Below, piece by piece: positions 7,626 through 31,539 of a stretch of DNA of 64,000 nucleotides; position 1 is the stretch's first letter, and every line of letters starts with the position of its first letter. Under the pieces are notes generated by a model. The model did no database searches. It was not told the origin of the DNA and saw only the letters and a program-made list of their open reading frames with translations. The position numbers were made by a program, and so were the translations under genes. The DNA is taken from positions 1,178,001 through 1,242,000 of the forward strand of contig NZ_JARUBM010000002.1 of the NCBI RefSeq assembly GCF_029626175.1, given 5' to 3'. Origin of the DNA: Micromonospora sp. WMMD1082 (GTDB taxonomy: Bacteria; Actinomycetota; Actinomycetes; Mycobacteriales; Micromonosporaceae).

Positions 7626-7836
7626 GCACTGCTTGCGGTGGGGGTTTCCGGCGTTTCCTGCGGCACTGCTTGCGGTGGGGGTTTCCGGCGTTTCCTGCGG
7701 CACTGCTTGCGGTGGGGGTTTCCGGCGTTTCCTGCGGCACTGCTTGCGGCGGGGGTTTCCGGCGTTTCCTGCGGCACTGCTTGCGGTGGGGGTTTCCGGC
7801 GTTTCCTGCGGCACTGCTTGCGGTGGGGGTTTCCGG
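7626..7836 (+). repeat. 37-bp tandem array, five full copies plus a partial sixth
   Basis: Units start at 7626, 7663, 7700, 7737, 7774 and 7811, each opening with GCACTGCTTGCGG and ending TTTCCTGCG. Copies are identical except for one T-to-C change in the fourth. The period is not a multiple of three and the array begins 7 nt after a stop codon, so it is not coding; open frames across it are artefacts of the repeat. The last copy runs into the left arm of the adjoining hairpin. Confidence 0.95.
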
Positions 7837-7900
7837 GGAGGCCCGCCCGCTCCGGGCGGTCAGGCTTGATCCCTGCGCGGGCGGGCCTCCCCGGAAACCC
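7827..7900 (+). repeat. Perfect 23-bp hairpin with conserved 28-nt loop (copy A)
   Basis: Arms 7827-7849 and 7878-7900 pair without a mismatch; the loop is 7850-7877. The loop is the same as that of the hairpin at 31470-31539 (read on the other strand) at 27 of 28 positions, although the two stems are unrelated. Both lie downstream of a catabolic gene in the sense orientation. It could terminate the deoC-aldehyde dehydrogenase transcript. Confidence 0.9.
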
Positions 7901-7985
7901 TGACGTGGGCGCGGATCGTCCGTGGGTCACGGCTTGCGGGGTGCTGCCCAGCGTCGGGTCCTCGGGTTGTCGTGTGTGTCTCGTT

Positions 7986-8066
7986 CAAGATCCGCGCAAC
8001 TTCGGGGATGTTGCTGGGTCGAGTGGGTGATGAGGCAGCAGTATCCCTGAAGTTGCGCGGATCTTG
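7986..8066. repeat. Palindromic intergenic repeat (REP-like), intact copy
   Basis: Arms at 7986-8008 and 8044-8066 match as an inverted repeat at 22 of 23 positions, opening CAAGATCCGCGCAACTTC and closing with its mirror. The central part contains GAGGCAGCAGTATC. The two halves of a second copy flank the insertion sequence at 32.4-33.9 kb. Nothing else with coding potential is seen between 7901 and 8143; 8067-8143 is strongly G-rich. Confidence 0.85.
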
Positions 8067-8140
8067 GGCGGGGCGGGGCGGGCGCGGCGAGGAGCGGGGG
8101 TGGGGGCGGCGGGGAGCGGGGGTGGGCGTGCGGGGTGGGG

Positions 8141-8166
8141 TCTACTACGGGGGGTAGGATTTTGGG
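8141..8166 (+). promoter_or_regulatory. Candidate promoter/operator of the BlaI gene
   Basis: TAGGAT at 8155-8160 ends 6 nt before the GTG start, which predicts a leaderless transcript. The box overlaps CTACGGGGGGTAG inside TCTACTACGGGGGGTAGGAT, with CTA/TAG arms like the TACTAC-type sites used by BlaI/MecI repressors; autoregulation is therefore plausible. Confidence 0.45.
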
Positions 8167-8538
8167 GTGACTCGGTTGGGGGATCTTGAGCGTGCGGTGA
8201 TGGACGTGTTGTGGGACACGGTTCCCGCCACGTCGTCCGGAGTGACGGTGCGCGAGGTGGCCGACGCCCTGGACGGGCGGGAGCTGGCGTACACCACGGT
8301 GATGACGGTGCTGGACCGGCTGGCCGGCAAGGACATGGTGCAGCGCGAACGGGAGGGCCGGGCCTGGCGTTACCGCGCCGCGGCCAGCCGGGAGGCGTAC
8401 ATTGCCCAGCTCATGCTCGACGCGCTCGACCTCGGCGGCAGCCGGGACGCGGCACTGGTCCGGTTCGCCCGCTCGGTCACCGGCACCGAAGCGGACGTGC
8501 TGCGCGCCGCCCTGACCGACGAGGGCACGGAGCGGTAG
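8167..8538 (+). CDS. BlaI/MecI/CopY-family transcriptional regulator
   Basis: A 123-residue winged-helix repressor: LGDLERAVMDVLWD opens the DNA-binding domain, TVREVADAL and AYTTVMTVLDRLAGKDMV form the recognition region, and REGRAWRYRAAASREAYIAQLM leads to the dimerisation tail. It is followed 10 nt later by an M56 peptidase gene, the classical BlaI-BlaR1-like pairing in which the peptidase relieves repression. No beta-lactamase lies nearby; in actinobacteria such pairs often control respiration or stress genes, and cydABDC lies immediately downstream. Confidence 0.93.
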   Translation: MTRLGDLERAVMDVLWDTVPATSSGVTVREVADALDGRELAYTTVMTVLDRLAGKDMVQREREGRAWRYRAAASREAYIAQLMLDALDLGGSRDAALVRFARSVTGTEADVLRAALTDEGTER

Positions 8539-8548
8539 GGGCGACGCC

Positions 8549-9454
8549 GTGGCTCATCCCCTGCACTTCGCCGCCTCGATGCTGGCCTGCTGGCTGATCG
8601 CCCAGGTGCTGGCCCGCGCGACCTGGACGTGGCGCAGCCCTCGGGTGGCGATCCTCTGCTGGCAGGCGATCGGCCTCGGGGTCGGTCTCTCCGCGATGGG
8701 CCTGCCGATCGCGCTCGGGCTCGCGCCGTACCAGCGGGGCACCGGAAGCGCCCTGCTCGCGCTCGCGAACGACCTGTGGCACAGCACCCTGCCGGCGGGC
8801 CTCGGTGCCGCGCACCTGGGGCTGGTCGGCGTCGGGCTCGGCATCGGTGCGGTGCTGCTGACCACGACGGTACGCAGCATCCACGGCACGGTACGCGCCC
8901 AGCGCCGGCACCGGGACCTGCTCACGCTGGTGGCCCGGCGGGATCCCACCGTGCCCGGCGCGCTGGTGCTCGACCACCCGGGCGCGGCCGCGTACTGCCT
9001 GCCGGGGGTGAAGCCCCGGGTGGTGGTCAGCGCCGGCACGCTCAGCCTGCTCGACCGGGCCGAGTTGGCGGCGGTGCTGAGCCACGAGCGGGCGCACGCC
9101 CAGGAACGGCACGATCTGGTGCTGCTGCCGTTCACCGCGCTCTGCCGGGCACTGCCCTGGCTCCGCTGGGTCCGCGAGGCGCACGAGCGGGTCTCCCTGC
9201 TGGTCGAGATGCGCGCCGACGACAAGGCCCGCGAGCTGCACGCCGAGGCCCCGCTGGCCGGTGCGCTGCGCCGGTTCGCCGCCGCCGGCAACCGGATCAC
9301 CCCGGCGGGCGCGCTCGGCCTGGGCGACCGGGACCTGGACGTACGGGTGCAGCGGCTGCTGGTCGCCGAACGCCCGCCCCGGCTGCTCGGCGCCGTCGCC
9401 CTTACCGTGACCACGACCGTGGCCGCCCTGCCCGTCTCGCTCTTCCTGAGCTGA
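8549..9454 (+). CDS. M56-family membrane metallopeptidase (BlaR1/HtpX-like)
   Basis: A 301-residue integral membrane zinc peptidase. The zinc motif is HERAH (in LSHERAHAQERHD, about residue 180), followed by a conserved EMRADDKARELH that supplies the third ligand. Hydrophobic segments lie at about residues 5-25, 35-60, 80-110 and at the C-terminal end. Start GTG at 8549 follows the BlaI stop by 10 nt, with GGAGCGG upstream. Its presumed role is to inactivate the partner repressor. It lacks the extracellular penicillin-binding domain of true BlaR1, so its signal is unknown. Confidence 0.9.
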   Translation: MAHPLHFAASMLACWLIAQVLARATWTWRSPRVAILCWQAIGLGVGLSAMGLPIALGLAPYQRGTGSALLALANDLWHSTLPAGLGAAHLGLVGVGLGIGAVLLTTTVRSIHGTVRAQRRHRDLLTLVARRDPTVPGALVLDHPGAAAYCLPGVKPRVVVSAGTLSLLDRAELAAVLSHERAHAQERHDLVLLPFTALCRALPWLRWVREAHERVSLLVEMRADDKARELHAEAPLAGALRRFAAAGNRITPAGALGLGDRDLDVRVQRLLVAERPPRLLGAVALTVTTTVAALPVSLFLS

Positions 9455-9529
9455 CCCTGAGCTGATCCGGAAGCTGACCCCTGAGCTGATCCGCGCCATC
9501 GCGCGGGACCGCCCGGCCGGGCGCACATA

Positions 9530-9561
9530 GGTAGCGTCTCTACGTGTAGCCTCGCTACCAT
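9530..9561 (+). promoter_or_regulatory. cydA promoter with dyad operator shared with padR
   Basis: GGTAGCG (9530-9536) and CGCTACC (9553-9559) form an inverted repeat enclosing CTACGTGTAG (9540-9549). The segment GTAGCGTCTCTACGT (9531-9545) recurs exactly, on the other strand, at 16434-16448 just before the padR start. TACCAT at 9556-9561 is a likely -10 box. AGGAGA lies 10 nt before the cydA ATG. Confidence 0.65.
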
Positions 9562-9591
9562 CATCGGTCCCCGTCCCAGGAGAGCCGACAC

Positions 9592-10845
9592 ATGGACACC
9601 CTGCTCCTCGCCCGCCTGCAGTTCGCCGCCACCGCCTCGGTCCACTTCCTCTTCGTGGCCGTCACGCTCGGCCTGGTCACGCTGCTGGTCGGGTTGCAGA
9701 CCGCCTGGGTGATCACCGGCAACCCGCGCTGGGAGCGGCTGACCCGGTTCTGGGGCCAGCTCTACGTGATCAACTACGTGCTCGGGATCGCCACCGGCAT
9801 CGTGATGGAGTTCCAGTTCGGACTGAACTGGAGCGGGTTGTCGCGCTACGTCGGCAACGTCTTCGGCGCCCCGCTGGCGATCGAGACCCTGGTCGCCTTC
9901 TTCCTCGAATCGACCTTCCTCGGCATGTGGATCTTCGGGTGGCACCGGCTGCGCCGGGGCGTACACCTCGCGCTGCTCTACGGCGTCGCGCTGACCGCGT
10001 ACGCCTCGGCGTTCTGGATCATGGTGGCCAACTCCTGGCTACAGAACCCGGTCGGCTACGAGGTACGCGACGGCGTCGCCCACCTGACCGAATTCCCGGC
10101 GCTGCTGAGCAACCCCGCGCTGGGCATGGCGTTCGGGCACGTGGTGTCGGCGGCCCTGCTCACCGGCGGCCTGCTGATGGCCGCGATCAGCGCCTGGCAC
10201 CTGAACCGCCGCACCACCGACTACGCGCTGTTCCGCACCTCGCTGCGGATCGGGCTGGTCACCGCCGCGCTGGCGATCACCCTCGTGCAGGGGTTCGGCT
10301 TCGCCCAGTTCGGGCCGGTCGGCGCCGTGCAGCCCACCAAGTTCGGCGGCAACCCGGCGGCCGATGCCCTGGTCGCCGACTGGACCGCCCGCTACGGTCC
10401 CGGCGACTACCTGCCCCCGGTGCTGTCCAACGTCGGGCTCGGCTTCATGATCCTCATCGGTTTCGGCCTCGGCCTGCTCTGGCTGCTCGTCCCGCTGCTC
10501 CGGCGGGACTGGATCATCCGGCTCCGGTTCCCGCTCTGGCTGCTGATGCTCACCCTGCCGCTGCCGTTCGTGGCCCTGATCCTCGGCTGGATCGCCCGCG
10601 AGGTCGGCCGTCACCCCTGGGTGGCGTACGGGCTACTGCCGGTGGAGCAGGCGGTCTCGCCGATCAGCCCCTGGTTGATGGCGACCTCGCTGACCGGCTT
10701 CACCCTGCTGCTCGGCACGCTCGCCGTCACCAACTGGGTGCTGCTGGCCCGGCACGCCGCCCGGGGCGCCGCCGATCCCACCCTCGGCCGCCCGCCGGCC
10801 CAGCCGCCGGCCGACGACCCCCGCCCCGAGCCCGCCTTCGTCTGA
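9592..10845 (+). CDS. cydA: Cytochrome bd ubiquinol oxidase subunit I
   Basis: Membrane quinol oxidase subunit that carries the b- and d-type haems and reduces oxygen to water at low oxygen tension. The 417 residues form about nine membrane segments. Visible features are the haem-ligand histidine region VHFLFVAVTLG near residue 20, the GRHPW motif (GWIAREVGRHPW) near 340, and KFGG of the quinol loop region. The short length indicates the short-Q-loop class. It heads cydABDC; cydB follows 9 nt later. Confidence 0.97.
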   Translation: MDTLLLARLQFAATASVHFLFVAVTLGLVTLLVGLQTAWVITGNPRWERLTRFWGQLYVINYVLGIATGIVMEFQFGLNWSGLSRYVGNVFGAPLAIETLVAFFLESTFLGMWIFGWHRLRRGVHLALLYGVALTAYASAFWIMVANSWLQNPVGYEVRDGVAHLTEFPALLSNPALGMAFGHVVSAALLTGGLLMAAISAWHLNRRTTDYALFRTSLRIGLVTAALAITLVQGFGFAQFGPVGAVQPTKFGGNPAADALVADWTARYGPGDYLPPVLSNVGLGFMILIGFGLGLLWLLVPLLRRDWIIRLRFPLWLLMLTLPLPFVALILGWIAREVGRHPWVAYGLLPVEQAVSPISPWLMATSLTGFTLLLGTLAVTNWVLLARHAARGAADPTLGRPPAQPPADDPRPEPAFV

Positions 10846-10854
10846 GGAGCCGTG

Positions 10855-11862
10855 ATGGAACTCGCCTGGTACGCCCTGCTGGGCCTCTTCTTCGCCGGTT
10901 ACCTGGTGCTCGGCGGCTACGACTACGGCGTCGGCCTGCTGCTCGCCCGGGGCGCCGACGCACCCCGCCGGCGCGCCGCCCTCAACGCGGTCGGGCCGTT
11001 CTTCCTCGGCAACGAGGTGTGGCTGGTGGCCGCCGTCGGCATCCTGTTCGGCGCGTTCCCGGTGCTGGAGGGGGAACTGCTCGCCGGCAGCTACCCGGCC
11101 GTGGCCACCGCGCTGACCGGCGTGATCCTGGTGACCGCCGGGGTGCAGCTGCGCAGCCGTCCCAGCAGTCGGAGCGCCCGCGCCGGGTGGGACCGGGTGA
11201 TCGTGGTCGGCAGCCTGCTCGCCGCGCTCGGCTGGGGCGTGGTGCTCGCCGGGCTGTTGCAGGGCGTACCGCTGCGCGCCGACGGGCACGTCGCCGGGGT
11301 GACCCACCTGTTCACCCCGTTCGCGGCCGCCACCGGGCTGGCCCTGGTCGCCCTGGTCGCGGCGCACGGTGCGACCTTCCTCACGCTCCGGCTGCCCGCC
11401 GCCGAGGGCGACCGGCTCCGGCCGTTGGCCCGCCGGCTGCTGCTCACCGCGATCACCGCGGTCGGCGCGGCCACCATCGTCGGCCTGCTCTCCGACCGGG
11501 TACGCGCCGCCGCGCAGCGCCCGTCACTCGGCGTACTGCTGGGAATGCTCGTGGTGGTGGCCCTGTTGGCCGCGCGGGCGGCGCTCGGGCGGCGGCGATC
11601 CGGCGTGGCCTTCGCCGCCACCGCGGCGGCGCTTGCCCTGCCTGTGCTGCTGGTCGGGGCGACTCTCTGGCCCTACGTGCTGGTGTCGACCGTCGATCCG
11701 GCGGCGTCGCTGAGCGTCGCCGACGCGGCGGCGAGCGCACCAACCCTGCGCCTGCTGGGCTGGCTGGCGGTGCCACTCCTGCCGGCCCTACTAGGCTTCC
11801 AGGCGATGTGCTGGTGGATTTTCCGGGGACGGACCGACGGCGGGGCACCGGTGTACTGGTGA
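10855..11862 (+). CDS. cydB: Cytochrome bd oxidase subunit II
   Basis: Second membrane subunit of the bd oxidase, 335 residues with about eight membrane helices. The family motif GGYDYGVGLL is near residue 20 and FFLGNEVWLVAAVG near 55. I prefer the ATG at 10855, 6 nt after GAGGAG, over a GTG three bases upstream. Its stop overlaps the cydD start (GTGA), so subunit and exporter genes are tightly coupled. Confidence 0.96.
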   Translation: MELAWYALLGLFFAGYLVLGGYDYGVGLLLARGADAPRRRAALNAVGPFFLGNEVWLVAAVGILFGAFPVLEGELLAGSYPAVATALTGVILVTAGVQLRSRPSSRSARAGWDRVIVVGSLLAALGWGVVLAGLLQGVPLRADGHVAGVTHLFTPFAAATGLALVALVAAHGATFLTLRLPAAEGDRLRPLARRLLLTAITAVGAATIVGLLSDRVRAAAQRPSLGVLLGMLVVVALLAARAALGRRRSGVAFAATAAALALPVLLVGATLWPYVLVSTVDPAASLSVADAAASAPTLRLLGWLAVPLLPALLGFQAMCWWIFRGRTDGGAPVYW

Positions 11863-13532
11863 ACCGCCGCCCCTTCGACCCGCGGCTGCTGCGCCGGGTT
11901 CCTGCTGCCCGGCGCGACCTTGCCCTGCTCGCGTTCCTCGGCGTGCTCGCCGCCGGGCTCGTCGTGGCGCAGGCCACCGCCCTGGCCCTGCTGCTGGCCA
12001 CGGCGTTCACCGGGCAGCTGGACCGGCCCGCGTTGGCCGGTTTCGTGGCCGCCGTCGCGGCCCGCTCGCTGGTGGTCTGGGCGCAGGGTGCCGTGTCGGC
12101 GCGGGTGGCCGCCACGGTCAAGGCGGCGCTGCGGGCGGACCTGCTCGGCGCGGTCGCCCGGCACGGCCCCGGCTGGGTCGCCGGGCAGCGGGCCGGGCAG
12201 TTGGCCACACTCGCCGGTCGCGGGCTGGACGCGCTGGACGCCTACTTCACCGGCTACCTGCCGCAGCTCGTGCTGAGCGTCACCGTGCCCGTCGCGGTGC
12301 TGGGCCGGGTCTTCCTCGCCGACTGGAGTTCGGCGGTGATCATCGCGCTGACGCTGCCACTCATCCCGATCTTCGGTGCGCTGCTCGGTTGGCAGGCCCA
12401 GGCCGCCACCGAACGCCAGTGGCGGCGGCTGTCGCTGCTCGGCGGGCACTTCCTGGACATGGTGGCCGGGCTGCCTACGCTGCGCGCGTTCGGCCGCGCC
12501 CGAGCACAGACCGAAGCGGTGCGACGGATGGCCGACGGCCACCGGGTCGCCACCATGAAAACCCTGCGGATCGCCTTCCTCTCCGCGCTGGTGCTGGAAC
12601 TCGTGGCCACCCTGTCGGTGGCGCTGGTCGCGGTCCCGGTCGGTATCCGGCTGCTCGGCGGCGGGCTGGCCCTGCAGACCGCGCTGCTGGTGCTGCTGCT
12701 CACCCCGGAGGCGTACCTCCCCCTGCGGGCGGCCGGCAGCCGGTTCCACGCCAGCATGGAGGGGCTCACCGCGCTCGACGAGGCGCTCACCCTCTCCGGC
12801 TCGGCGCCACCGGCAGCGCCGCACCGCGCCGCCGTGCGACTTGACGGCCGCGACGAGATCCGCTTCGAGTCGGTGACCGTCGCGTACGAGCGCACCACGG
12901 CGCTGCGGGACGTCTCGCTGACCATCCGGCCCGGTGAACGGATCGCGATCATCGGGCCGAGCGGTGCCGGCAAGAGCACCCTGCTCGGCCTGCTGCTCGG
13001 CTTCGTGAGCCCGACCGCCGGGCGGGTCACCGTCGGTGGGGTCGACCTGGCCCACGCCGATCTCGACGGCTGGCGCCGGCAGCTGGCCTGGGTACCGCAG
13101 CGGGCCCACCTGTTCGCTGCGTCGCTGGCCGACAACATCCGGCTCGGCGCCCCCGACGCCCCTCCGGTCGCCCTCGCCGCCGCCGTCAATGCCGCCGCGC
13201 TCGACGACGTGGTCGACGCCCTGCCCGACGGGCTGGACACCCGGCTCGGCGAACGGGGCCACGGCCTGTCCAGCGGGCAACGGCAGCGGGTGGCGCTGGC
13301 CCGGGCGTTCCTGCGGGACGCGCCGGTGGTGCTGCTCGACGAGCCGACCGCGCGACTCGACGCCGCCGCCGAGGCCGCGGTGCTGTCGGCCACCCGCCGG
13401 CTGGTCGCCGGCCGCACCGCGCTGCTGGTCGCCCACCGACCCGCGCTGCTGACCGACGCCGATCGCATCCTGCGGGTCGAGGACGGCCGGGTCACCGAGC
13501 TGACCCCAGCGCCGGCCGGGGAGGCGCGATGA
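11859..13532 (+). CDS. cydD: Thiol reductant ABC exporter subunit CydD
   Basis: Half-transporter with fused membrane and ATPase domains; with CydC it exports cysteine/glutathione-type thiols needed for bd oxidase assembly. The 557 residues have six membrane helices up to about 300, Walker A GPSGAGKST near 365, ABC signature LSSGQRQRVALARA near 470, and Walker B VVLLDEPTARLD. The GTG at 11859 overlaps the cydB stop; the long open frame upstream lies inside cydA/cydB and is not used. Confidence 0.95.
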   Translation: MNRRPFDPRLLRRVPAARRDLALLAFLGVLAAGLVVAQATALALLLATAFTGQLDRPALAGFVAAVAARSLVVWAQGAVSARVAATVKAALRADLLGAVARHGPGWVAGQRAGQLATLAGRGLDALDAYFTGYLPQLVLSVTVPVAVLGRVFLADWSSAVIIALTLPLIPIFGALLGWQAQAATERQWRRLSLLGGHFLDMVAGLPTLRAFGRARAQTEAVRRMADGHRVATMKTLRIAFLSALVLELVATLSVALVAVPVGIRLLGGGLALQTALLVLLLTPEAYLPLRAAGSRFHASMEGLTALDEALTLSGSAPPAAPHRAAVRLDGRDEIRFESVTVAYERTTALRDVSLTIRPGERIAIIGPSGAGKSTLLGLLLGFVSPTAGRVTVGGVDLAHADLDGWRRQLAWVPQRAHLFAASLADNIRLGAPDAPPVALAAAVNAAALDDVVDALPDGLDTRLGERGHGLSSGQRQRVALARAFLRDAPVVLLDEPTARLDAAAEAAVLSATRRLVAGRTALLVAHRPALLTDADRILRVEDGRVTELTPAPAGEAR

Positions 13533-15349
13533 GACACCCTTCGTCGGCCACGGGCGCCGGCCTCGCACCCGAGCTGACCGTGCTGCGGCTGGCCCGGCCG
13601 TACCTGAGGCGCCTGGTCGGCGCCGGCCTGCTCGCCGCGGCCACCGAGTTCGCCGGGCTGGCCCTGATGGCCACCGCGACGTGGCTGCTGATGACGGCGG
13701 CCGGTCAGCCCCCGTTGGACCGGCTCACCGTGGCGATCGTCGCGGTGCGCGCGCTGGCCGTCGGTCGGGGCGTGCTGCGCTACACCGAACGCCTCGCCGG
13801 GCACGACGCGGTGCTGCGCCTGGTCACCGACGTCCGGGCGCGGGTCTTCGGCACCCTGGCCGCCCGGCGCGGTGCCCCGCCTCGCAGCGGGGACGCGCTG
13901 AGCCGGCTGGTCTCCGACGTGGAGGCGGTGCAGGATCTGCTGCTGCGGGTGCTCGTCCCGGCCACCGCGGCCGGTCTGGTGGGCCTGCTGGCCGTCGGCC
14001 TGACCGCGCTCGTGTCGCCGCCCGCCGCGCTCGTGCTGGCCGCCGGGCTGCTGGTGGCCGGCCTGGTCCTGCCGGCGCTGGCCACCCTGCTGACCCGACG
14101 GGCCGCCGCCGAGGTGGCGCCGCTGCGGGGCGCGCTCGCCACCGACGCGGTCGATCTGACCCACGGCGCCGCCGACCTGGCCGCCTTCGGCGCCACCCGG
14201 GACGCGCTGGACGCGGCCGGGCATCGCGCCCGGCGGCTGGCCCGGCTGGAACGGCGGCTCGCCGCGCTCGGCTTCGCCGTCGACGCCGCCGGGGTGCTGG
14301 TGGCCGGGCTCACCGCCGGCGCGGTGGTGCTCGTCGCGCTGGGCGCCGGCGTGGACGGGGTGCTGGTCGGCGTCCTGGCGGTCGGCACGCTGGCGGCGGT
14401 GGAGATCGCCCTGGCGCTGGTCGGCGCCGCCCGGCAGTGGACCGGGCTGCGTTCCGGCCTGGCGCGGATCGCCCAGCTCCTGGAGGCCGCCCCGGGCCCC
14501 GGGCCCGCAGCCGACCGCGCCGCGCCCGCCCGGCCCGCCGACCCGGCCGAGGGCGCGGCGACCGCCGGGCCGCGCGAGGCGGCCGTCGCGCCGGCCGTAC
14601 GGTTCGACGGGGTGACCGTCCGCTACCGGCCCGGCGCCCCCGCCGCGCTCGACGGGTTCGACCTCGACCTGCCGCCGGGTAGCCGGACGGCGGTCGTCGG
14701 CCCGAGCGGGGCGGGCAAGAGCACGTTGGCCGCCGTCCTGACCGGCGCGGTACGCCCCGACCATGGCCGGGTCACCCTGAGCGGGCGGGACGTGTCGGCG
14801 TATCCACCCGACGAACTGCCCGGGCTGGTCGGTGGGCTGCTCGCCGAGGCGTACGTCTTTCACGCCACGGTGCGGGAGAATGTGCTGCTCGGCCGCCCGG
14901 GTGCGGACGAGGGGGCGCTGGCCGCCGCGACCACCGCGGCCGGGCTGACGGACTGGGTCCGGGCCCAGCCGGACGGCTGGGACACGGTGGTCGGCGAGGA
15001 GGGCGGGCAGCTCTCCGGCGGTCAGCGGCAGCGGCTCGCGCTCGCCCGCGCCCTGCTCGCCGCGCCCGGGGTGCTGGTGCTCGACGAGCCGACCGAGGGT
15101 CTCGACCCGGTCGCGGCCGACGAGGTGCTCGCCGCCACGCTGGCCGCGACCCCCGCCTGGCACTCGGTACTGCTGATCACCCATCGACTCAGCGGCCTCG
15201 CCGCGCTCGACGAGATCCTGGTGCTGGACGCCGGCCGGGTCGTCCAGCGCGGCCGGCATACGGAGTTGGTCTCGACGCCGGGCTGGTACCGCGAGCAGTG
15301 GGTGCTGCAGCAGGCCGCCGAGCACGGCTACCTCGCCCTGTCTCCCTGA
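13529..15349 (+). CDS. cydC: Thiol reductant ABC exporter subunit CydC
   Basis: Partner of CydD; 606 residues. The membrane domain covers about 20-310, then an Ala/Pro-rich linker (PAPARPADPAEGAATAG) leads to the ATPase with Walker A GPSGAGKST, signature LSGGQRQRLALARALL and Walker B VLVLDEPTEGLD. Start ATG overlaps the cydD stop by 4 nt. It ends the cyd operon. Confidence 0.95.
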   Translation: MRHPSSATGAGLAPELTVLRLARPYLRRLVGAGLLAAATEFAGLALMATATWLLMTAAGQPPLDRLTVAIVAVRALAVGRGVLRYTERLAGHDAVLRLVTDVRARVFGTLAARRGAPPRSGDALSRLVSDVEAVQDLLLRVLVPATAAGLVGLLAVGLTALVSPPAALVLAAGLLVAGLVLPALATLLTRRAAAEVAPLRGALATDAVDLTHGAADLAAFGATRDALDAAGHRARRLARLERRLAALGFAVDAAGVLVAGLTAGAVVLVALGAGVDGVLVGVLAVGTLAAVEIALALVGAARQWTGLRSGLARIAQLLEAAPGPGPAADRAAPARPADPAEGAATAGPREAAVAPAVRFDGVTVRYRPGAPAALDGFDLDLPPGSRTAVVGPSGAGKSTLAAVLTGAVRPDHGRVTLSGRDVSAYPPDELPGLVGGLLAEAYVFHATVRENVLLGRPGADEGALAAATTAAGLTDWVRAQPDGWDTVVGEEGGQLSGGQRQRLALARALLAAPGVLVLDEPTEGLDPVAADEVLAATLAATPAWHSVLLITHRLSGLAALDEILVLDAGRVVQRGRHTELVSTPGWYREQWVLQQAAEHGYLALSP

Positions 15350-15415
15350 CCCCTCGGGGGCGGCTCCGGGATGTCCCCGACGCCGGGGCACCGCCGCGCA
15401 TGGCAGGGTGGGGGC

Positions 15416-16087: not shown

Positions 16088-16091
16088 GGGG

Positions 16092-16433: not shown

Positions 16434-16448
16434 ACGTAGAGACGCTAC
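16434..16448 (-). promoter_or_regulatory. padR operator matching the cydA promoter
   Basis: On the minus strand GTAGCGTCTCTACGT directly abuts the padR ATG and is identical to 9531-9545. TAGCGT within it lies 8 nt before the start and could double as a -10 box for a leaderless message, so a bound protein would block both transcription and autoregulate. Confidence 0.6.
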
Positions 16449-16580
16449 TTGTTGTCCGGGTGGTGGCGCCACCGGGGTGCGGCCACCGGTTACCCAGCGC
16501 AGCCAACTAGGGTATGTGCCCAGAGTCACTCACCGGCATCAACGCCGGCGGGTGGTAGCCCGACGCACCCGGAGGTCACC

Positions 16581-17531: not shown

Positions 17532-17595
17532 CCCGTACCAGGGAGCATCAGTCTCTGGCAGAGAAAGCCCTGTGTCCCGGGAGGAGGACGACGCC

Positions 17596-22294: not shown

Positions 22295-22394
22295 GTCGCC
22301 GCTCACCTCCTTCGTACCCGGCACCGGCTCGCACCGGTGCTACCCGTTGTATGCAATGTTGTCGCCCCGCCTGCCCCACCGGCCGGCGAGACGA

Positions 22395-22799: not shown

Positions 22800-25700
22800 C
22801 CTTCTTGCTCCTTCTGCCCGCTCCCGGCCATCGGGCCTGAGCCAGACTGCGAGGATTGCTGCCCGCCCGGGGTTCCCTCCGGGCCGGTCGGGTTGCTGTC
22901 CGACGGGTGGCTACGCCCCCGCTGGACCCCCCGGTGGTAGGCGGAGAGCAGACCGCGCACCGATTCCGGGTTACGACGCTGTACCGAGGTGGTCGGCTTC
23001 TCCACCGCTCCCGGTACGAGCTGCGCCATCGGCGTACGCTTCGGCAGCCCGGTCTCCGTGGTGCCGCTGGGCGGCGCCTGGCTGGCCGCGGAGGCAGCCC
23101 GCCAGCCGTCGTCGGCCGCGGTCTGCCAGACGCTCTCCTGCGACGCCGAACGGTGCGGGGGCCGGTTCTCCTGCGGTGCCGGGCGGTGCGGGAGCCGGCT
23201 CTCGGCGGCGCCGGGACGGGGCCCGCCGCTCGCCGCCGCGCCGTTCCCGCCAGCGGCCGTCGGAGTCTGTGCCATCGGTACGTTACCTGTCGTCCCGGTG
23301 TGGTTCTGCTGGACGGATCGGCCCGCGACGTCGACCGTGGAGAGCTGCTGGGTGGCCGCACCGGCCGTGGCCGGCTGCCGAGCGCCCGCCGACTCCTCCG
23401 GACCCGGCCGGCGGGTGCGGAACCACGCCGACTCCAGCTCCCGGAAGATCGGCAGCTCCATCGTCTCGTCCGCGTACCGCTGCCGGTTCTGCGCCTGGGG
23501 CGGCGTCGGCGCGGTCGGCTGGGGCGCCGAGACCGGCCGCGCGGCCGGTGCCTGACGCTGCACCCGGGGCAGTTCGGTGGTCATGTCCAGCGCGGCGGCC
23601 AGCCGCTCGGGCACGGGCGGGGCGGCCGGTTCCCCGGCCACCGGCGGCCAGGCCGGCGGCATCGGGGCGCCACCCGGGGCGGGCGCCGCCGAGACGGGCC
23701 GCTGCGGCAGCGGGCTGCCGGGCGGCGTCGACACCGGCGAACTGGAGACCGGAGCGGACGACACGGGCTGACCGGAGACCGGCGCCGCCGACACCGGCGG
23801 GGCGGAGTACGGCGTGCCGGACACGGGCGGCGACGAGACCGGGGGCATCGCCGGCGGAGCGTACGCCCCGGCCTCGGGGCTGCTCGGCAGCTGGCGAGGA
23901 ATGGTCGGCTGCTGGCCGGTGACGCCCGGCTCGTCGGTGGACCGGCGCTGTGGCAGCGGGTCGACCGAGTGGCCGTTCGACGTACGCGGAGGGAAGTTGT
24001 TGCCCCCCGTGGTGCCGCTGGCACCGGTGAGGTCCGACCAGGCGGGCAGGTTGCCCGCACTCCCCACGGTGGCCGGCGTGCCGGAGCCGTTGCGGCTGGC
24101 CGGGTCGAAGGGGCGGCCGCCGAGGGTCACCTGGTTGCCCGAGCCACCGGGCGGACGCGTGGCCGGGGCCGATGGTGCGGACGCACCGTTGCCGAGCGCG
24201 GGCAGCGCGCCGAACGCCGGGTTCGGCCCGGACGGGGGACCGGCAGCGGCGGGCAGCGCGGCGGCCGGCAGCCCTCGACCGGACAGTGCCCGGGGCACCA
24301 GCACGGTGGGCGGCAGCGTGCAGTCGGCGACGGTGCCGCGGTCGCTGCCGGGACGCAGCTCGACCTTGACGCCGTGCCGGGACGCCAGGCGGGCGACCAC
24401 GACCAGGCCCATCATCCGGGAGACGGCCACGTCCACCTGCGGCGGCGTGGCCAGCCGCTCGTTGAGGTCGGCCAGCTGCTCGCCGCTGATGCCGATGCCC
24501 CGGTCCTCCACGTACAGCGAGGCACGGTCGCCGACCCGGCGGGCCTCGACCAGCACCTGCGAGTCCGGTGGCGAGAACGCGGTGGCGTTGTCGAACAGCT
24601 CGGCGACGAGGTGGACCAGGTCGTTGACGGCGTGCGCGGCGACCTCGATGTCCCGGTCGATCACCCCGAACTCGATCCGGGTGTAGTGCTCGACCTCGGA
24701 CTGCGCGGCGCGCAGCACGTCGATCAGCGCGGCCGGCTCCCGCTGCACACGGGTCGAGTCGGCACCGGCGAGGACCAGGAGGTTCTCGTCGTTGCGGCGC
24801 ATCCGGGTGGCCAGGTGGTCCAGCTGGAACAGCTCGGCCAGCCGGTCCGGGTCCTCCTCGCCGCGCTCCAGCCGGTCGAGGTGGCCGATCAGCCGGTCGA
24901 CCAGGATCTGGGACCGGCGGGCCAGATTGACGAACATCGTCGCGACGGACGCCCGCAGCGCGGCCTGCTCGGCGGCGGTACGGACCGCTTCCAGGTGGAC
25001 CGCGTTGAACGCCTCGGTCACCTGGCCGAACTCGTCCTTGCTCCGCACCGGCAGCGGCTCGGCGATCTGGTTGGCCAGCTGCACCGGGGAGAGCTGCCCG
25101 GTGACCTGCGGGTCGCGCAGCCGGGCCACTGCCTGGGGCAGCCCGTACTGGGCGATGGAGAGCGCGCCCTGGCGAAGCTCACGCAGCGAACGGGCCATCG
25201 AGCGGGCCACCAGGAACGCCAGGAAGATCGCCAGCAGCAGCATCGTGAGCAGCAGGCCGGTCTCCAGGAACACCTGGCGCTGCACGTCGGAGCGGAGTTC
25301 GCCGGCCTGGGTCACCACGTCGGAGTCGAACTTCTGCTCGACCGAGCGGATCAGCTTGCCGTTGGCGACCAGCGCAGCGTCCCACTGCTCCGGGGTGAAG
25401 GAGACGCCGGCGAGGTTCTGGGAGTTGTCCGCGTTGACCTGGCTGATGTAGATCGTCGCCTGCCGGCGGTCGCCGCCGCCGATGGTCTGGGCGTGGAACT
25501 CCTCCTCCTCCTCGGTGGCGACCGCGCTGAAGCTCTGCTGCGCCTGCAGCTGTCCGGTCTCGCTGGAGATGTAGTCCGTCCGCAGGGTCGCGCTCATGCC
25601 GCCCGCGTCCAGCGCACGGTGCACCACCACCCGGCGGATGGAGAGCCACTCCTTCTCCCGGGCCACGGCGGCGGCGGCCCGCATCCGGTCGCTCAGGTCG

Positions 25701-26290
25701 TTGTCACCGGCCAGCTGGCTGGCCGAATCCCGGACGGTGAGCAGCTGGTTGATCAGCTCGTCGTAGGACTGGAGGGCGTCGGTGACCCGGAACTTGCCGT
25801 TGAGCACCTGACTGCGGGCGCCCGGCAGGTCACCGAGGCGCTCGTCGATCTGGGCGAGCAGCCCCTGCAGGCTGACGGGCAGGTCGGCGAGGTCGGCCCG
25901 CTGCCGCGAGTAGGGGCCCTTGGCCTCGTCCACGCGCGACGAGGTGTCGCTGTAGACCGCGGTTGCCTTCTTCTTCGCCTCCGACTCGGCCTGACCCGCC
26001 TGCTGCGGCTCCACGCTGAGCAGAAGCACGGCGGCGGTCCGCTCGTCCTGTAGACCGTCCACCAGCTCGCCGGAGTGGCCGATCAGCTCGGCGAGGTCGC
26101 CGGCCCGGTTGGCGTCGTTCAAGGCGCCCAAGTGGTCGACCAGACCGCTTGTGCCCACGACGACCGTGGCGATGGTCGGCACGATCATGATGAGACCGAG
26201 CTTGGACCAGATCGGCATGTCGCGGAGCCGACCTGCCGGCCGGCGTAGACGCGACAGGAGGGAACCTGCCGTCTTCGGCCGTTTGCTCAC
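22796..26290 (-). CDS. Nitrate/nitrite-sensing-domain histidine kinase (CvnA-like)
   Basis: A 1164-residue membrane sensor kinase. A first membrane helix lies at about residues 30-50 ([19 protein letters not shown]), an extracytoplasmic NIT domain to about 310, a second helix [17 protein letters not shown] near 320, then HAMP, the dimerisation segment [20 protein letters not shown] and a HATPase domain with [12 protein letters not shown] and YVEDRGIGI. About 450 C-terminal residues are Pro/Ala/Ser-rich, with a run of short VSxxPVS repeats, ending in [14 protein letters not shown], a motif shared with the protein at 17.6 kb. GTG at 26290 follows GAGGGCGGTGAC; the open frame upstream is not conserved. 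It heads the conservon operon. Confidence 0.93.
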
Positions 26291-26484
26291 GTCACCGCCC
26301 TCGTGATTGCAGCGTCCGCGTTGCCCCCCGGACAACGCCCAGCAGCCGACCCGGCGGGTCGGACCATCCGAGATTCCATCACGCCGCTCCGGAAAGAGAA
26401 AGCCCAGGTTGGCCGCAGCCGGAGGTGTGATGAGATGTTGATGCAATTTGATCGCGGTCCGTCTGTCCGGAGTCACTTAAAGTA

Positions 26485-27096
26485 ATGAAGAATCCGCACC
26501 ATGTCGTCCTGCTGGCGGGCCCGTCCGGCTCCGGAAAATCGTATATAGCGCAGCAAACAGGGCTGCCAGTGCTCTGTTTGGACCATTTCTACAAGGACGG
26601 CGATGACCCAACGTTACCGCGACGGAACGGTCAGATCGATTGGGAGTCGCCCGCCTCGTGGGACGCCGAGGCGGCCGTCGAGGTCATCGGCGAGCTGGCC
26701 CGGCACGGCCGGGCAGACGTTCCGGTCTATGCGATCAACGAGGACCGGCGGGTGGCCACTCGGAGCTTCGAGCTGGCCAGTTCGCCACTTTTCGTGGCCG
26801 AAGGGATATTCGCCGCCGAGATCGTCGGGGAGTGCCGGCGACGCGGCCTGCTCGCCGGGGCGTACGCCCTGCGCCGGCCGCGCAGCGCCACCTTCCTCCG
26901 CCGGCTGGCCCGGGACCTCACCGAGCAACGCAAGGGCCCACACGTGCTGCTGCTGCGGGGCGTGGCGCTGCTGCGCGCCGAGCCGGCGGTGCTGCGCCGG
27001 CAGACCGGGCTCGGCGCGGAGGCCGCCCGCGGCCGGGACGTCCTGCGCCGGGTGGCCGGCCTGCTCGCCGCCGACCGCGCGCCGGTGGAGCGCTGA
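26485..27096 (+). CDS. Uridine kinase-like P-loop protein
   Basis: A 203-residue P-loop kinase: GPSGSGKS near residue 11, LDHFYKDGDDPTLPRR as a substrate loop typical of uridine kinases, DWESPASWD, and FVAEGIFAAEIV as the Walker B-like strand. It would phosphorylate uridine/cytidine to the monophosphate. ATG at 26485 has no good ribosome site. The first 100 bases are noticeably AT-richer than the neighbours, and a TTA leucine codon lies at 26614-26616. Divergent from the sensor kinase across 194 nt. Confidence 0.85.
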   Translation: MKNPHHVVLLAGPSGSGKSYIAQQTGLPVLCLDHFYKDGDDPTLPRRNGQIDWESPASWDAEAAVEVIGELARHGRADVPVYAINEDRRVATRSFELASSPLFVAEGIFAAEIVGECRRRGLLAGAYALRRPRSATFLRRLARDLTEQRKGPHVLLLRGVALLRAEPAVLRRQTGLGAEAARGRDVLRRVAGLLAADRAPVER

Positions 27097-27117
27097 GCCG
27101 GTGGAGCGCCCGCCCGA

Positions 27118-28218
27118 TCAGGCCAGCAGCTTCGCGTACGCCGGCTTGATCACCTCGTCGATGATCCGCAGCCGCTCGTCGAACGGGATGAAGGCGGACT
27201 TCATCGCGTTGATCGTGAGCCACTGGAGTTCGCGCCAGCCGTAGCCGAACGCGTCGACCAGCAGCGCCATCTCCCGGGACATCGACGTACCACTCATCAA
27301 CCGGTTGTCGGTGTTGACGGTGACCCGGAACCGCAGGTCCCGCAGGAGCCCGATCGGGTGTGCCGCGATCGACGGCGCGGCGCCGGTCTGCACGTTCGAC
27401 GACGGGCACAGCTCCAGCGGGATCCGCTTGTCCCGCACGTACGCCGCCAGCCGGCCGAGCCTCGGCTCGGGGCCGGGAGTGATGTCGTCGACGATGCGGA
27501 CGCCATGGCCGAGACGATCCGCCCCGCACCACTGGATCGCCTGCCAGATGGAGGGCAACCCGAACGCCTCACCGGCGTGGATGGTGAAGTGGAAGTTCTC
27601 CCGCTGGAGATATTCGAAGGCGTCCAGGTGACGGGTGGGCGGGAAGCCCGCCTCCGCGCCGGCGATGTCGAAGCCGACCACGCCGTGGTCGCGGTGTCGG
27701 ACGGCCAGCTCGGCGATCTCCTGCGAGCGGGCGGCGTGCCGCATCGCGGTGAGCAGGGTGCCGACCCGGATCGGCGTACCGGCCTCGGCGGCCAGCGCGC
27801 TGCCCTCGACGAAGCCGGCCAGCACCGCCTCGACCACCTCGTCGAGGGTCAGATCCCGCTCCAGGTGCTGCTCCGGCGCGAACCGCACCTCGGCGTAGAC
27901 CACCCCGTCGGCGGCCAGGTCGAGGGCGCACTCCCGCGCCACCCGGCGCAGCGCGGGACCGGTCTGCATCACGGCCACGGTGTGCGCGAAGGTCTCCAGA
28001 TAGCGCTCCAACGAGCCCGAGTTCGCCGCCGCCACGAACCAGCGCCCCAGCTCGGCCGGGTCGGTGGCGGGCAGTTCGTGGCCGACCTGCGCGGCCAGAT
28101 CCACGATCGTCGCGGGCCGCAGGCCGCCGTCCAGATGGTCGTGCAGCAGGGCCTTCGGCGCCCTGACGATGTCCTCGTAGCGAATGTTCGCACTGAGCCC
28201 GGTGGTTCGCTCGCTCAT
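27118..28218 (-). CDS. add: Adenosine deaminase
   Basis: Zinc hydrolase that converts (deoxy)adenosine to (deoxy)inosine. The 366 residues show the N-terminal metal motif HDHLDGGL near 30, the HAGEAFG active-site loop near 215, GHG in [12 protein letters not shown], and [11 protein letters not shown] with the catalytic aspartate region. The ATG at 28218 overlaps the stop of a 27-codon upstream ORF (ATGA) and lies at the edge of an 11-bp hairpin (28216-28226 with 28240-28250), so its translation probably depends on that ORF. Confidence 0.96.
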
Positions 28219-28298
28219 GCCGGCACTGCGCTTCGCCGCGTGCCGGCATGAGGCACCTTCGCACTGAGCCTGATGATTCGCTCGCTGCGCTCGCTCAT
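28215..28298 (-). CDS. Short leader ORF translationally coupled to add (27 codons)
   Basis: ATG at 28298 opens a 27-residue frame starting [14 protein letters not shown]; its TGA overlaps the add ATG as ATGA. The first codons duplicate the beginning of add itself ([11 protein letters not shown]), as the DNA at 28258-28299 repeats 28187-28219. Whether it is a leader peptide or a by-product of a dispersed repeat is open. No tract of one amino acid suggesting attenuation is present. Confidence 0.5.
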
Positions 28299-28332
28299 GC
28301 ACAGACCCTAGTCCGCGCTGGTGGGCCGCCGG

Positions 28333-28364
28333 CCGGTGACCCGGCCGGTCACCGGCACTAAACT
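28333..28364 (+). promoter_or_regulatory. Promoter and 9-bp dyad operator of the rRNA methyltransferase gene
   Basis: CCGGTGACC (28333-28341) and GGTCACCGG (28347-28355) form a perfect inverted repeat with a 5-bp centre. TAAACT at 28359-28364 is a good -10 box ending 6 nt before the GTG start, so the message is probably leaderless and the dyad covers the -35 region. Confidence 0.6.
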
Positions 28365-28370
28365 CGATGC

Positions 28371-29252
28371 GTGACGCGATCGGCAGGCGGGCTGGATCCT
28401 CGCGTCGTCGACCGGCTGCGCTGCCCCGTCTGCGGTGAGCCGCTCGCCGAGGCCGTCACCGGCGCCTCCCGGGCGTTGCGCTGCCCCCGCGGGCACAGCT
28501 TCGACATCGCCCGGCAGGGCTACGTGAACCTGCTCGCCGGCCGCGCCCCGCACGGCGGCGACACCGCCGAGATGGTCGCCGCCCGGGCGGACTTCCTGGC
28601 CGCCGGGCACTACGACGTCATCTCCGCCGCCCTCGCGGAGGCCGCCCGCCCCGTCGTTCCCCCGGCCGGCGACGGCGCGTACCCGCTGGTCGTCGACGCC
28701 GGGGCGGGCACCGGCCGGCACCTGGCGGCGGTGCTGGCGGCGCTGCCGCAGGCGGCCGGCCTCGCCCTGGACGTGTCCAAGCCGGCGCTGCGCCGGGCCG
28801 CGCGGGCACACCCCCGCGTCACCGCCGCGCTGGCCGACACCTGGCGGCGGCTGCCGCTGGCGGACGCCGCCACGGCGGTGCTGCTGAACGTCTTCGCACC
28901 CCGCAACGGCGCCGAGTTCCACCGGGTGCTCGACCCGGCGGGGCGGCTGCTGGTGGTGACCCCCGACGCCGACCACCTCACCGAACTCGTCGACTCGCTC
29001 GGCCTGCTGCGGGTCGACCCGGCCAAGGCCGAACGGGTCGCGGCCAGCCTCGGCGGGCACTTCACCGAGGAGTCGGCCGCCGTGCACCGGCGGCAGCTGA
29101 GCCTGACCGGCCCGGAGGTGAGCACGCTGGTGGGCATGGGCCCCAGCGCCTGGCACACCGACCCGGCGGGGTTGGCCGCGCGGATCACCGCCCTCGGCGA
29201 GCCGGTCCGGGTGACCGTGGCCGTCCGGCTCGGCGTCCACCGGCCACGCTGA
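28371..29252 (+). CDS. RlmA-type 23S rRNA (guanine-N1)-methyltransferase
   Basis: A 293-residue SAM-dependent methyltransferase. The N-terminal zinc finger is CPVC...CPRGH (about residues 20-45), followed by [12 protein letters not shown], typical of RlmA/TlrB proteins. Motif I is [12 protein letters not shown] near 105; LNVFAPRN and [16 protein letters not shown] follow. Family members methylate G745 or G748 of 23S rRNA; the G748 type gives resistance to some macrolides in producer actinomycetes. Which base is modified cannot be told here. It has its own promoter with a dyad. Confidence 0.9.
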
Positions 29253-29277
29253 CGGCCAGGGGCTTCGGACACGGGCC

Positions 29278-29958
29278 CTACGTGGAGAGGTCGACCTCTT
29301 CCCAGCCGGGGGGCTCGTCGTGGTACGGCCCGCGCAGGATCACCGCCCATTCCAGCGCCCACCGCCGCTGACCGATGGCGTTGGCGTCCACCAGACCCGG
29401 CAGCGTCCGCCCGGCCCGGCTCACCTCCAGGTACGCCCAGTCCAGGCAGTAGTGCAGGTCGAGCAGGGCGGCCGCGTCGGCCGGGTGCTGCGGCGCGGCG
29501 AGGATCCGGGAGCGCCACCGCCGGAAGGTCTCCCCCTCGGCGATGTTCGGCAGCCGCTCCACCAGCCGGTCATCGGTCGGCATGGTGGGGTCGAGCTGCT
29601 TGGTCAGGCCGAGCACCCAGGCCAGCGAGAACAACGCGTCATGGTGCAGGACGAAGGAGCGGTGGTCGCCCTTGGCCCCGGTGACGAACTGGAACTCCGG
29701 AGGGGTGACCATCTCCACCAGATGCGAGGCGAGCAGCCAGCTCATCGCGGCCTGGGGCGGCATGCCGAAACAGCGGGCCAGGATCAGGTGCAACACCGCG
29801 ATCCGCGCCTCGATCTCCGCGGTCGGTCGCAGCTCGATGTCGTCGCCCGGCTCCCAGACCAGCGGGAACTGCGGCGGCGGGAGCGGCAGCCGCAGCCGGG
29901 ACAGCTCCTCCAGGCTCGCCTCACGCACCTCACGGGGGTCAGGGGCAGGCACGATCAC
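29278..29958 (-). CDS. DUF4272 domain protein
   Basis: A 226-residue protein of the DUF4272 family: ELRPTAEIEARIAVLHLILARCFG, then WLLASHLVEMVTPPE, HHDALFSLAWVLGLTKQLDP and the DLHYCLDWAYLEVSRAG segment near the end. No catalytic signature or membrane segment is visible. Function unknown. It sits between the rRNA methyltransferase and deoA with no operon link. Confidence 0.8.
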   Translation of the reverse strand: MIVPAPDPREVREASLEELSRLRLPLPPPQFPLVWEPGDDIELRPTAEIEARIAVLHLILARCFGMPPQAAMSWLLASHLVEMVTPPEFQFVTGAKGDHRSFVLHHDALFSLAWVLGLTKQLDPTMPTDDRLVERLPNIAEGETFRRWRSRILAAPQHPADAAALLDLHYCLDWAYLEVSRAGRTLPGLVDANAIGQRRWALEWAVILRGPYHDEPPGWEEVDLST

Positions 29959-30065
29959 GGCAACATCCCTGTCTGCTCACGGCGTCAAGGCGCCGACCGT
30001 CCCCCCTGGCCTGCGAGAATAGCGGCCCTTACGCTCCGACACCATGGGATCGGGCCATAGTTTCG

Positions 30066-31346
30066 TCACTCGACGCGTTCGATCACCAGCGGCGTCGGTG
30101 CGGGTGGTCGCGCGGCCACGGTCACCGCCCGCGCGGCCTCCGCCAGCGCCGCCGGGATCCGCTCCGCCTGCTCGGCCCGTAGTTCGTAGAGGGGCTCCCC
30201 GGCCCGCACCGGGTCGCCGGGGCGCTTGTGCAGCAGCACCCCCGCCGGCACGCTGACCGGGTCCTCCTTGCGGGCGCGGCCCGCGCCGAGTCGCCACGCG
30301 GCCACCCCCATGGCGTACGCGTCGACCGCCGCGACGTAACCGTCCGTGTCGGCGCGGACGACCTCGACCTCGACCGCCTCGGGCATCGGCGCGTCCGGGT
30401 CGCCACCCTGGGCCCGGATCATCGACCGCCAGACGTCCATCGCGCGCCCGTCGTGCAGCGCGGCGGCGGGGTCGGCGTCGGGCAGCCCGGCCGCGTCCAG
30501 CATCTCCCGGGCCAGCGCCAGGGTCAGCTCCACCACATCGGCGGGGCCGCCGCCGGCGAGCACCTCGACGGACTCGGTGACCTCGATCCCGTTGCCGATG
30601 GCCCGCCCGAGCGGGGTGGACATGTCGGTGAGCAGGGCGACGGTCCGCACGCCGTGCGCACGGCCCAGCTCCACCATGGTCCGGGCCAGGTCCCGGGCGT
30701 CGTCGACCGACTTCATGAACGCACCGGAGCCGACCTTCACGTCCAGCACCAGCGCGCCGGTCCCCTCGGCGATCTTCTTGCTCATGATCGAGCTGGCGAT
30801 CAGCGGGATGGCCTCGACGGTGCCGGTCACGTCGCGCAGCGCGTACAGCTTGCGGTCGGCCGGGGCCAGCCCGGACCCGGCGGCGCAGATCACCGCGCCG
30901 ACGTCGCGCAGCTGGGCGGTGAACTCCTCGTTGCTCAGCGCCGCCCGCCAGCCCGGGATCGACTCCAGCTTGTCCAGCGTGCCGCCGGTGTGCCCGAGCC
31001 CGCGCCCGGACAGCTGCGGTACCGCCGCCCCGCAGGCCGCCACCAGCGGGGTGAGCGGCAAGGTGATCTTGTCACCGACCCCGCCGGTGGAATGCTTGTC
31101 GGCGGTCGGCCGGGCCACCGACGACAGGTCGAGTCGCTCGCCACTGGCGATCATCGCGGCCGTCCAGCGGGCGATCTCCGGGCCGGTCATCCCGTTGAGC
31201 AGGATCGCCATGGCCAGCGCCGACATCTGCTCATCGGCCACCACCCCCCGGGTGTACGCGTCGACCACCCAGTCGATCTGCGCGTCCGACAACACCCCCC
31301 CGTCCCGCTTGACCCGGATCACGTCAACAGCAGCAAACCCACTCAT
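30066..31346 (-). CDS. deoA: Thymidine phosphorylase
   Basis: Phosphorolysis of thymidine/deoxyuridine to base and deoxyribose-1-phosphate, which feeds the mutase and DeoC. The 426 residues show the family signature STGGVGDKITLPLTPLVAACG near 90, SGRGLGHTGGTLDKLES near 115 and KVGSGAFM near 195. The ATG at 31346 gives the usual MSGFAAVDVIRVKRDGG opening. It lies downstream of cdd on the same strand, separated by a hairpin. Confidence 0.97.
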   Translation of the reverse strand: MSGFAAVDVIRVKRDGGVLSDAQIDWVVDAYTRGVVADEQMSALAMAILLNGMTGPEIARWTAAMIASGERLDLSSVARPTADKHSTGGVGDKITLPLTPLVAACGAAVPQLSGRGLGHTGGTLDKLESIPGWRAALSNEEFTAQLRDVGAVICAAGSGLAPADRKLYALRDVTGTVEAIPLIASSIMSKKIAEGTGALVLDVKVGSGAFMKSVDDARDLARTMVELGRAHGVRTVALLTDMSTPLGRAIGNGIEVTESVEVLAGGGPADVVELTLALAREMLDAAGLPDADPAAALHDGRAMDVWRSMIRAQGGDPDAPMPEAVEVEVVRADTDGYVAAVDAYAMGVAAWRLGAGRARKEDPVSVPAGVLLHKRPGDPVRAGEPLYELRAEQAERIPAALAEAARAVTVAARPPAPTPLVIERVE

Positions 31347-31469
31347 CCCTGTTTCCCATCGATATCCGCGCCTGCACGAGACCCACCCCGACCGCACTCA
31401 CGCACCGACGACCGCAGTCGCTGATTGACGGCCCTTCCGTAACGGACGCACGGTCCATGACCACGACGG

Positions 31470-31539
31470 GTCGGGGCCGACCGTGCCCGGCGGAGGGATC
31501 AAGCCTGACCGCCCGGAGCCGGGCACGGTCGGCCCCGAC
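31470..31539 (-). repeat. Perfect 21-bp hairpin with conserved 28-nt loop (copy B)
   Basis: Arms 31470-31490 and 31519-31539 pair exactly. The loop 31491-31518, read on the minus strand, is the same as that of the hairpin at 7827-7900 at 27 of 28 positions, while the stem sequences differ completely. It begins 24 nt after the cdd stop, in cdd sense orientation, and may end or process the cdd transcript. Confidence 0.9.

Follow-up and report, generated by a model that had tools for sequence, protein, structure and literature searches.

Tip-tagged hairpins at gene ends of Micromonospora: a nearly invariant apex on a long stem of free sequence

Gardner's TRIT motif (RNIE, 2011) is said to be a conserved structured motif at the gene ends of Mycobacterium tuberculosis. 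The element described here, a hairpin with a nearly invariant apex (the tip) on a long stem, occurs twice in a stretch of 64,000 nucleotides (the window) from Micromonospora sp. WMMD1082 (contig NZ_JARUBM010000002.1, positions 1,178,001 to 1,242,000 of the forward strand), and can be set beside several described systems. A TRIT model is in use according to the accessible part of one report (PMC3526491). Terminators that lack a U-tract (I-shaped; HS-U-lack in Streptomyces; PMC8269248) resemble the present element in their strong GC hairpin, which in their case stands at the RNA end, and in the missing T-run; in Streptomyces clavuligerus, 353 structured RNA ends without a U-tract are set against 182 with one, and the loop optimum given for Escherichia coli terminators is 4 to 8 bases. 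In the accessible portion of that paper, however, the loops are short and no conserved apex is named, whereas in the present hairpins a nearly invariant apex of 26 nt sits on a stem of about 24 bp. The REP/REPIN elements with RAYT (GTAG) and the CGTC-tagged palindromes, as far as the available text describes them (PMC3733652, the main text of which does not contain the word Actinobacteria), are likewise dispersed palindromes, mostly behind genes, with inverted pairs and patchy copy numbers; their stems measure 5-13 bp, their loops 2-20 bases and a tag marks the foot, whereas in the present element the apex is kept, the long stem is free and the hairpin-rich genomes tested have no Y1 transposase. 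The PBC-28-3 motif, in the part of its description that is accessible (PMC8632094), adjoins start codons, whereas the tip hairpins lie behind stop codons.

In the window, hairpin 1 (7827-7900, plus strand) consists of a perfect 24-bp stem (5' arm 7827-7850, 3' arm 7877-7900) enclosing a 26-nt apex (7851-7876), and hairpin 2 (31469-31540, minus strand) of a perfect 23-bp stem (5' arm 31518-31540, 3' arm 31469-31491) enclosing an apex of the same length (31492-31517). The 12-nt core GTCAGGCTTGAT lies at 7859-7870 in the former and at 31498-31509 of the minus strand in the latter, and the two apexes differ at a single base. A first-pass annotation of the window had already paired these hairpins on the strength of their 28-nt loops, with stems of 23 and 21 bp; the pair and its near-identity (one difference in 28) are real, the stems are slightly longer than given, and the 28-nt loop amounts to the 26-nt apex together with a closing pair. 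The number of matches to the 28-nt loop expected by chance is 0, even allowing up to three mismatches. Both are stable GC hairpins of the kind found in terminators, with RNA folding energies of -77.9 kcal/mol (z -8.7) for hairpin 1 and -67.9 kcal/mol (z -8.6) for hairpin 2. When the stems are aligned in register, 9 of the 22 positions in each arm are identical, close to the 8.1 or so that the composition of the 5' arms would give by chance; the earlier statement that the stems share no sequence is thus correct for this pair, but not for other copies in the same genome, which share stem classes.

Those copies were identified by the 14-nt centre of the apex, which occurs exactly seven times in the 7.44 Mb genome, always within a long stem, and once more with one mismatch at a place that has no strong stem. 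By eye, the seven fall into two loose stem classes. A covariance model recovers the same seven at E<=1e-5 and eight matches at E<=1e-3, the additional one possibly being a known copy read from its opposite strand. Aligned by blast together with its stem, hairpin 2 is 91% identical to a second copy over all 81 bases and 93% identical to a third over bases 12-71. The possibility that the apex had entered pre-existing terminators whose stems were the same was dropped: among the 53 blast matches of hairpin 2 in its own genome, 10 are at known copies and the remainder are weak, and at the 20 weak places that were read the best hairpins look unrelated.

The stem is retained at nearly all places where the apex is found, as illustrated by exact 19-mer apex sites picked by sequence alone, of which 119 of 124 distinct sites (three further sites at locus edges not counted) lie in a stem scoring at least 12, a score reached by 2 of 1500 random positions. 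Copies with unpaired stems, which had been named beforehand as pointing to an ordinary repeat, are rare (5 of 124, among them the second Trueperella site), and the stem is therefore kept together with the apex. Stem length is mostly 22-28 bp, with nearly any sequence. Among 21 diverse copies, 23 of the 24 outer pairs change on both sides, and the covariation score is 0.658, compared with 0.160 after shuffling (0/500) and at most 0.173 in slid controls; cutting the sequences in the hairpin register favours structure, a bias that the slid controls and an orthologous set limit. At that orthologous site, between cdd and deoA, the element is present in 17 of 29 readable genomes; across these 17 species the two arms differ at 0.192 and 0.147 of their bases and the apex at 0.014, nine pairs change on both sides, and the score is 0.153 versus 0.045 shuffled and at most 0.042 slid. 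The tip is under strong purifying selection at this old site. The tip-tagged gene-end hairpins are a real selected family, with a fixed apex and compensatory stems as the annotation had proposed, and they are also a dispersed repeat.

The fold of the apex is apparent from divergent relatives, in which a GGG/CCC stem is followed by a 2-nt bulge (CG or CC) and then by GUCA-GGCU-UGAU; the inner part, that is the C-rich bulge and the mini-hairpin, is nearly invariant. The pairs GGG/CCC and GUCA/UGAU are placed by compensatory changes in these relatives: in genome G216 three copies combine G5A with C22U, the copy at locus L231 has C22U alone, a lone G-U intermediate, and in that at L268 C11-G18 is flipped to G-C. 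At L302 and L234 the pairing runs without a break from the apex into the long stem; the element can therefore do without the 3x3 internal loop seen in Micromonospora. In the 21-copy and cdd-deoA sets the apex pairs are invariant, and the fold is based there on energy and on a handful of divergent copies; individual copies, folded thermodynamically, favour a register shifted by one. A cis pseudoknot of the apex with a 3' foot (CTGAC) was discarded because inspection shows this foot to be absent from several copies. In genome G203, three loci (L236, L240 and L245) combine the frame TCC-GGG ... CC/TCC with a different tip, around GCGTTTA / GCGTCGA, which could be a second apex class; a gapped-pattern scan for this class matches 7 of 16 genomes, but the reversed control also matches in several.

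With respect to genes (called by codon GC pattern and unreviewed), position was assessed for the 235 strong hairpins, that is, those of 254 distinct core sites with a stem score of at least 12, a share that is not unbiased because many sites were fetched with the covariance model. Of these, 221 are in loci that are long enough: 23 lie inside a called gene, 18 have no upstream gene within 400 nt and 180 remain, for which the upstream gene is in the sense orientation in 151 cases and antisense in 29 (binomial p 4e-21, although the copies are not independent). The distance from the stop codon is 0-40 nt in 104 of the 151 sense cases, with a median of 21 nt. A first count over 146 hairpins had given 102 sense versus 23 antisense, with orthologues counted repeatedly (the 146 sites form 55 clusters).

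The apex is concentrated in the genus. Its 21-mer, with at most three mismatches, is present in 88 of 151 genomes, 81 of 91 within the genus (own genome included) and 7 of 60 outside it, and the reversed 21-mer occurs 0 or 1 times per strand per genome; where loci outside the genus were inspected, a strong hairpin was seen in L011 and none in L009 or L010. Behind clpC at L011 (1505-1880, genome G091), one exact tip hairpin is followed by two degenerate apex copies. The named contigs listed are mostly from Micromonospora, the other listed carriers including Actinoplanes, Amorphoplanes, Catenuloplanes, Plantactinospora, Phytohabitans, Hamadaea and Trueperella bonasi. One and the same tip is shared by Micromonospora, Actinoplanes, Hamadaea and Trueperella, in the last of these on a strong stem at one of two sites. 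In Trueperella bonasi (L060, about 2950-3145), a reverse-oriented tip hairpin directly precedes a thiamine pyrophosphate (TPP) riboswitch, upstream of a transporter-like operon. The covariance model matches 43 of 121 genomes and 19 of 44 genera at the family scale (E<=1e-3) and 6 of 394 genomes, three of them of the same genus, at the class scale (E<=1e-5, strict filters).

Within genomes, the number of places ranges from 1 to about 27, and the earlier statement that the element is not a copied repeat is not supported, as the stems recur in classes and some genomes contain larger dispersed repeats. In genome G180, tip hairpins face each other in twelve pairs, seven of them between convergent genes by automatic gene calls, so that dispersed copies including inverted pairs, a feature of REP/REPIN elements, are indeed present; among eleven pairs inspected, seven have a third hairpin between them, one has a weaker middle hairpin and three (L294-L296) are shorter and have no middle. 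Two kinds of half-units appear by eye in different combinations at L285-L296 of this genome. In genome G544 a variant of the tip occurs in four dispersed repeats, about 320-480 bp long and 86-90% identical, that lie mainly outside called genes, and G364 carries the hairpin in tandem arrays, two or three to an array. The same hairpin is read on the opposite strand in 8 of 29 listed matches in G216 and in 1 of 28 in G180.

The genes that precede the element are varied. Upstream of hairpin 1 lie, in order, deoC, an aldehyde dehydrogenase gene and an aldehyde-dehydrogenase-like gene (6794-7618, plus strand, sense to the hairpin), and downstream a BlaI/Penicillinase_R-type regulator (8167-8538, plus strand). 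Hairpin 1 is a distance outlier, 204 nt from the stop codon of the aldehyde-dehydrogenase-like gene, probably owing to a 37-bp tandem repeat (7626-7836, plus strand, 5.7 copies, 98% match) between this stop codon and the stem. The repeat unit includes the beginning of the 5' arm of hairpin 1, resembling a backward duplication of the arm, and a further short tandem repeat (22 bp x 2.8, 8075-8135) lies just upstream of the BlaI-type gene. Hairpin 2 begins about 22 nt after the stop codon of an open frame (31563-33488, minus strand) that contains cytidine deaminase (cdd, frame residues 409-535), and thymidine phosphorylase (deoA, 30066-31397, minus strand) follows in the same direction, which places this hairpin between two tandem genes. 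The two catabolic contexts reported for the window are confirmed, but the description does not extend beyond it, where the neighbours include rpoB, tuf, clpC, DNA polymerase I and urease. In fact, the upstream genes of 20 cluster representatives are diverse (ClpC, DNA polymerase I, aldehyde dehydrogenases, urease alpha, pantothenate kinase, HemD, ThiF, sortase and a response regulator among them, three having no Pfam match), and a regulon of catabolic genes finds no support in them.

Several genera have the element between rpoB and rpoC, and in G422 a copy with the flipped C11-G18 apex is found behind tuf. Among 28 genomes compared by eye at rpoB-rpoC, selected by hand and not at random, the element is in the sense orientation in six (three with a changed core), reversed in two and degenerate in one; a plain short-loop hairpin is present in 17, and G097 and G122 have no hairpin. 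With or without the tip, a hairpin stands directly behind rpoB in 22 of 22 readable family genomes (L309-L333, by eye), and a hairpin is conserved inside the rpoBC operon. At cdd-deoA, 12 of the 29 genomes are without the element; partial remnants are visible by eye in G021, G030 and G034 and nothing in the others. These states, with the tip, without it and as a remnant, indicate that the tip has been lost and probably gained, yet is selected where present.

A conserved tip on a free stem points to a recognition signal at gene ends, to judge from sequence patterns. The reading preferred here, held at somewhat under an even chance, is that of a hairpin at the gene end whose stem is generic and whose tip is sequence-specific and read by a trans-acting factor. 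The stem would act as a rigid, nuclease-resistant handle and as a block at the transcript end, the tip would be the contact for the factor, most likely an RNA-binding protein, and the factor would use the tip to stop, trim or protect the RNA end. The proposed reader is suggested by the conservation of the tip, and the putative role of the stem as an RNA end, processing or stability signal by its position. A processing, stability or partial-termination signal is likelier than a full stop because the element occurs between genes that are expected to be co-transcribed (rpoB-rpoC, cdd-deoA).

A number of observations weigh against this reading. The upstream gene is antisense in 29 of the 180 cases and 23 of the 221 hairpins lie inside a called gene; the 17 plain hairpins at rpoB-rpoC show the tip to be dispensable there; the element is absent from 12 of the 29 genomes at cdd-deoA; and no trans-acting factor was found in this analysis. 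The non-standard pairs also point the other way. Read on the sense strand, the tip hairpins contain isolated A-C pairs in 33 and G-U pairs in 10 distinct contexts, and C-U in 17 versus G-A in 3, whereas a set of 175 plain hairpins that follow stop codons in this DNA has 19 A-C versus 32 G-U and 8 C-U versus 5 G-A (Fisher p 1.6e-4 for A-C/G-U and 2.4e-5 combined, where the difference in stem length between the two sets could matter and some contexts may share descent). Selection on an mRNA hairpin predicts G-U, and the A-C excess therefore runs counter to it. G-T mismatches would be removed by DNA repair; the plain hairpins behave like sense RNA, and the tip hairpins as though the complementary strand were the one that folds, or like DNA purged of G-T. 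The invariant apex G-U and the lone G-U intermediate of L231 are pointers in the opposite direction. Of the earlier description as a structured RNA, the structured element stands and the RNA is less certain, as the wobble pairs favour the complementary strand. A version of the reader that would accommodate this, and that we regard as doubtful, has the factor reading the GUCAGGCUUGAU tip on any long stem and acting on the strand complementary to the mRNA (an antisense transcript or single-stranded DNA), where it would guard gene ends against antisense transcription or mark DNA processing, with other lineages (G203, three copies) using another apex in the same frame.

The wobble asymmetry, unexplained by mRNA selection, would also fit an element that works at the DNA level, as a hairpin in single-stranded DNA or a cruciform whose tip is read by a DNA enzyme, a miniature REP/REPIN-like repeat, mobile or recombinogenic, that lodges at gene ends and is partly domesticated there as an end hairpin. 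This is possible, if on the unlikely side. It agrees with the larger repeats (the G180 pairs, the G544 repeats and the G364 arrays), with the patchy distribution in the family and the class, with the presence, absence and partial remnants at cdd-deoA, and with a foot motif, G[AT]C-TGG-C, that stands beside 39 of 146 stems compared with a background of 1.5%. On the other side, two of 16 genomes tested encode a Y1 transposase, namely the one studied here, where it lies at 5.06 Mb and distant from all seven copies, and the copy-free G009; the hairpin-rich genomes G180, G216, G158, G003 and G364 have none, for which reason a RAYT/REPIN origin was rejected. Of the 117 families to which 84 scanned neighbours belong, the 25 commonest include no transposase. 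A phage or plasmid origin was set aside as well, as the scans gave nothing convincing: the element was not found on plasmids, phages gave three weak matches only, inside genes, and 13 viral contigs with the apex 16-mer have no strong stem there. Strong purifying selection on the tip at an old orthologous site is not expected of passive insertion, and the tight spacing to stop codons is a further point against it.

That same spacing is what ordinary intrinsic terminators of a GC-rich actinobacterium would show, their apex being conserved through descent alone; the hairpins are found also between convergent genes (51 of 221), and relatives have plain hairpins at the same place. The classic U-tract is missing, however, with a T content in the 12 nt after the stem that is near background (2.77 versus 2.53) and TTTT in 1 of 235 hairpins; moreover, termination needs no conserved apex, the stems diverge while the apex does not, and the location within rpoB-rpoC and cdd-deoA does not suit a terminator, all of which makes this explanation rather unlikely. 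More improbable again is that template-switch correction of palindromes, a mutational process, keeps the stems perfect in place of selection, with function residing in the apex alone, for example as a double-stranded DNA site with the partial dyad GGTCA....TGATCC. The arms do drift freely yet remain perfect, G-T mismatches are depleted on one strand, and the seemingly compensatory apex changes are also dyad-symmetric; on the other hand, stemless sites are rare and the stem is kept with the apex, and the apex bulge and the GGCT loop are nearly invariant yet not dyad-symmetric.

Whether read by an RNA-binding protein at the transcript end, as preferred here, or otherwise, the family appears to be undescribed as judged from a search of the open-licence literature and from Rfam. 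In the window, Rfam 15 matches only a tRNA; in six relatives' loci (E<=1), the matches on the hairpins are below the gathering score, most of them to microRNA models, and the TPP riboswitch is found beside one hairpin. The 15-mers of the exact apex sequence are unmatched in the literature, and the 18 papers that contain its 12-mers are unrelated to judge from their listing; no description of tip-tagged hairpins was found in the open-licence literature, mostly as represented by its listings.

RNA-end formation without U-tracts in GC-rich actinobacteria is an open matter, and the tip hairpins touch upon it. A fixed tip on a free stem inverts the usual picture of repeat palindromes and terminators and implies a reader. 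The 235 hairpins are natural variants, and the pairs with and without the tip at the same site could be used for direct tests, while the complement-strand bias, if real, points to a function seldom sought at gene ends.

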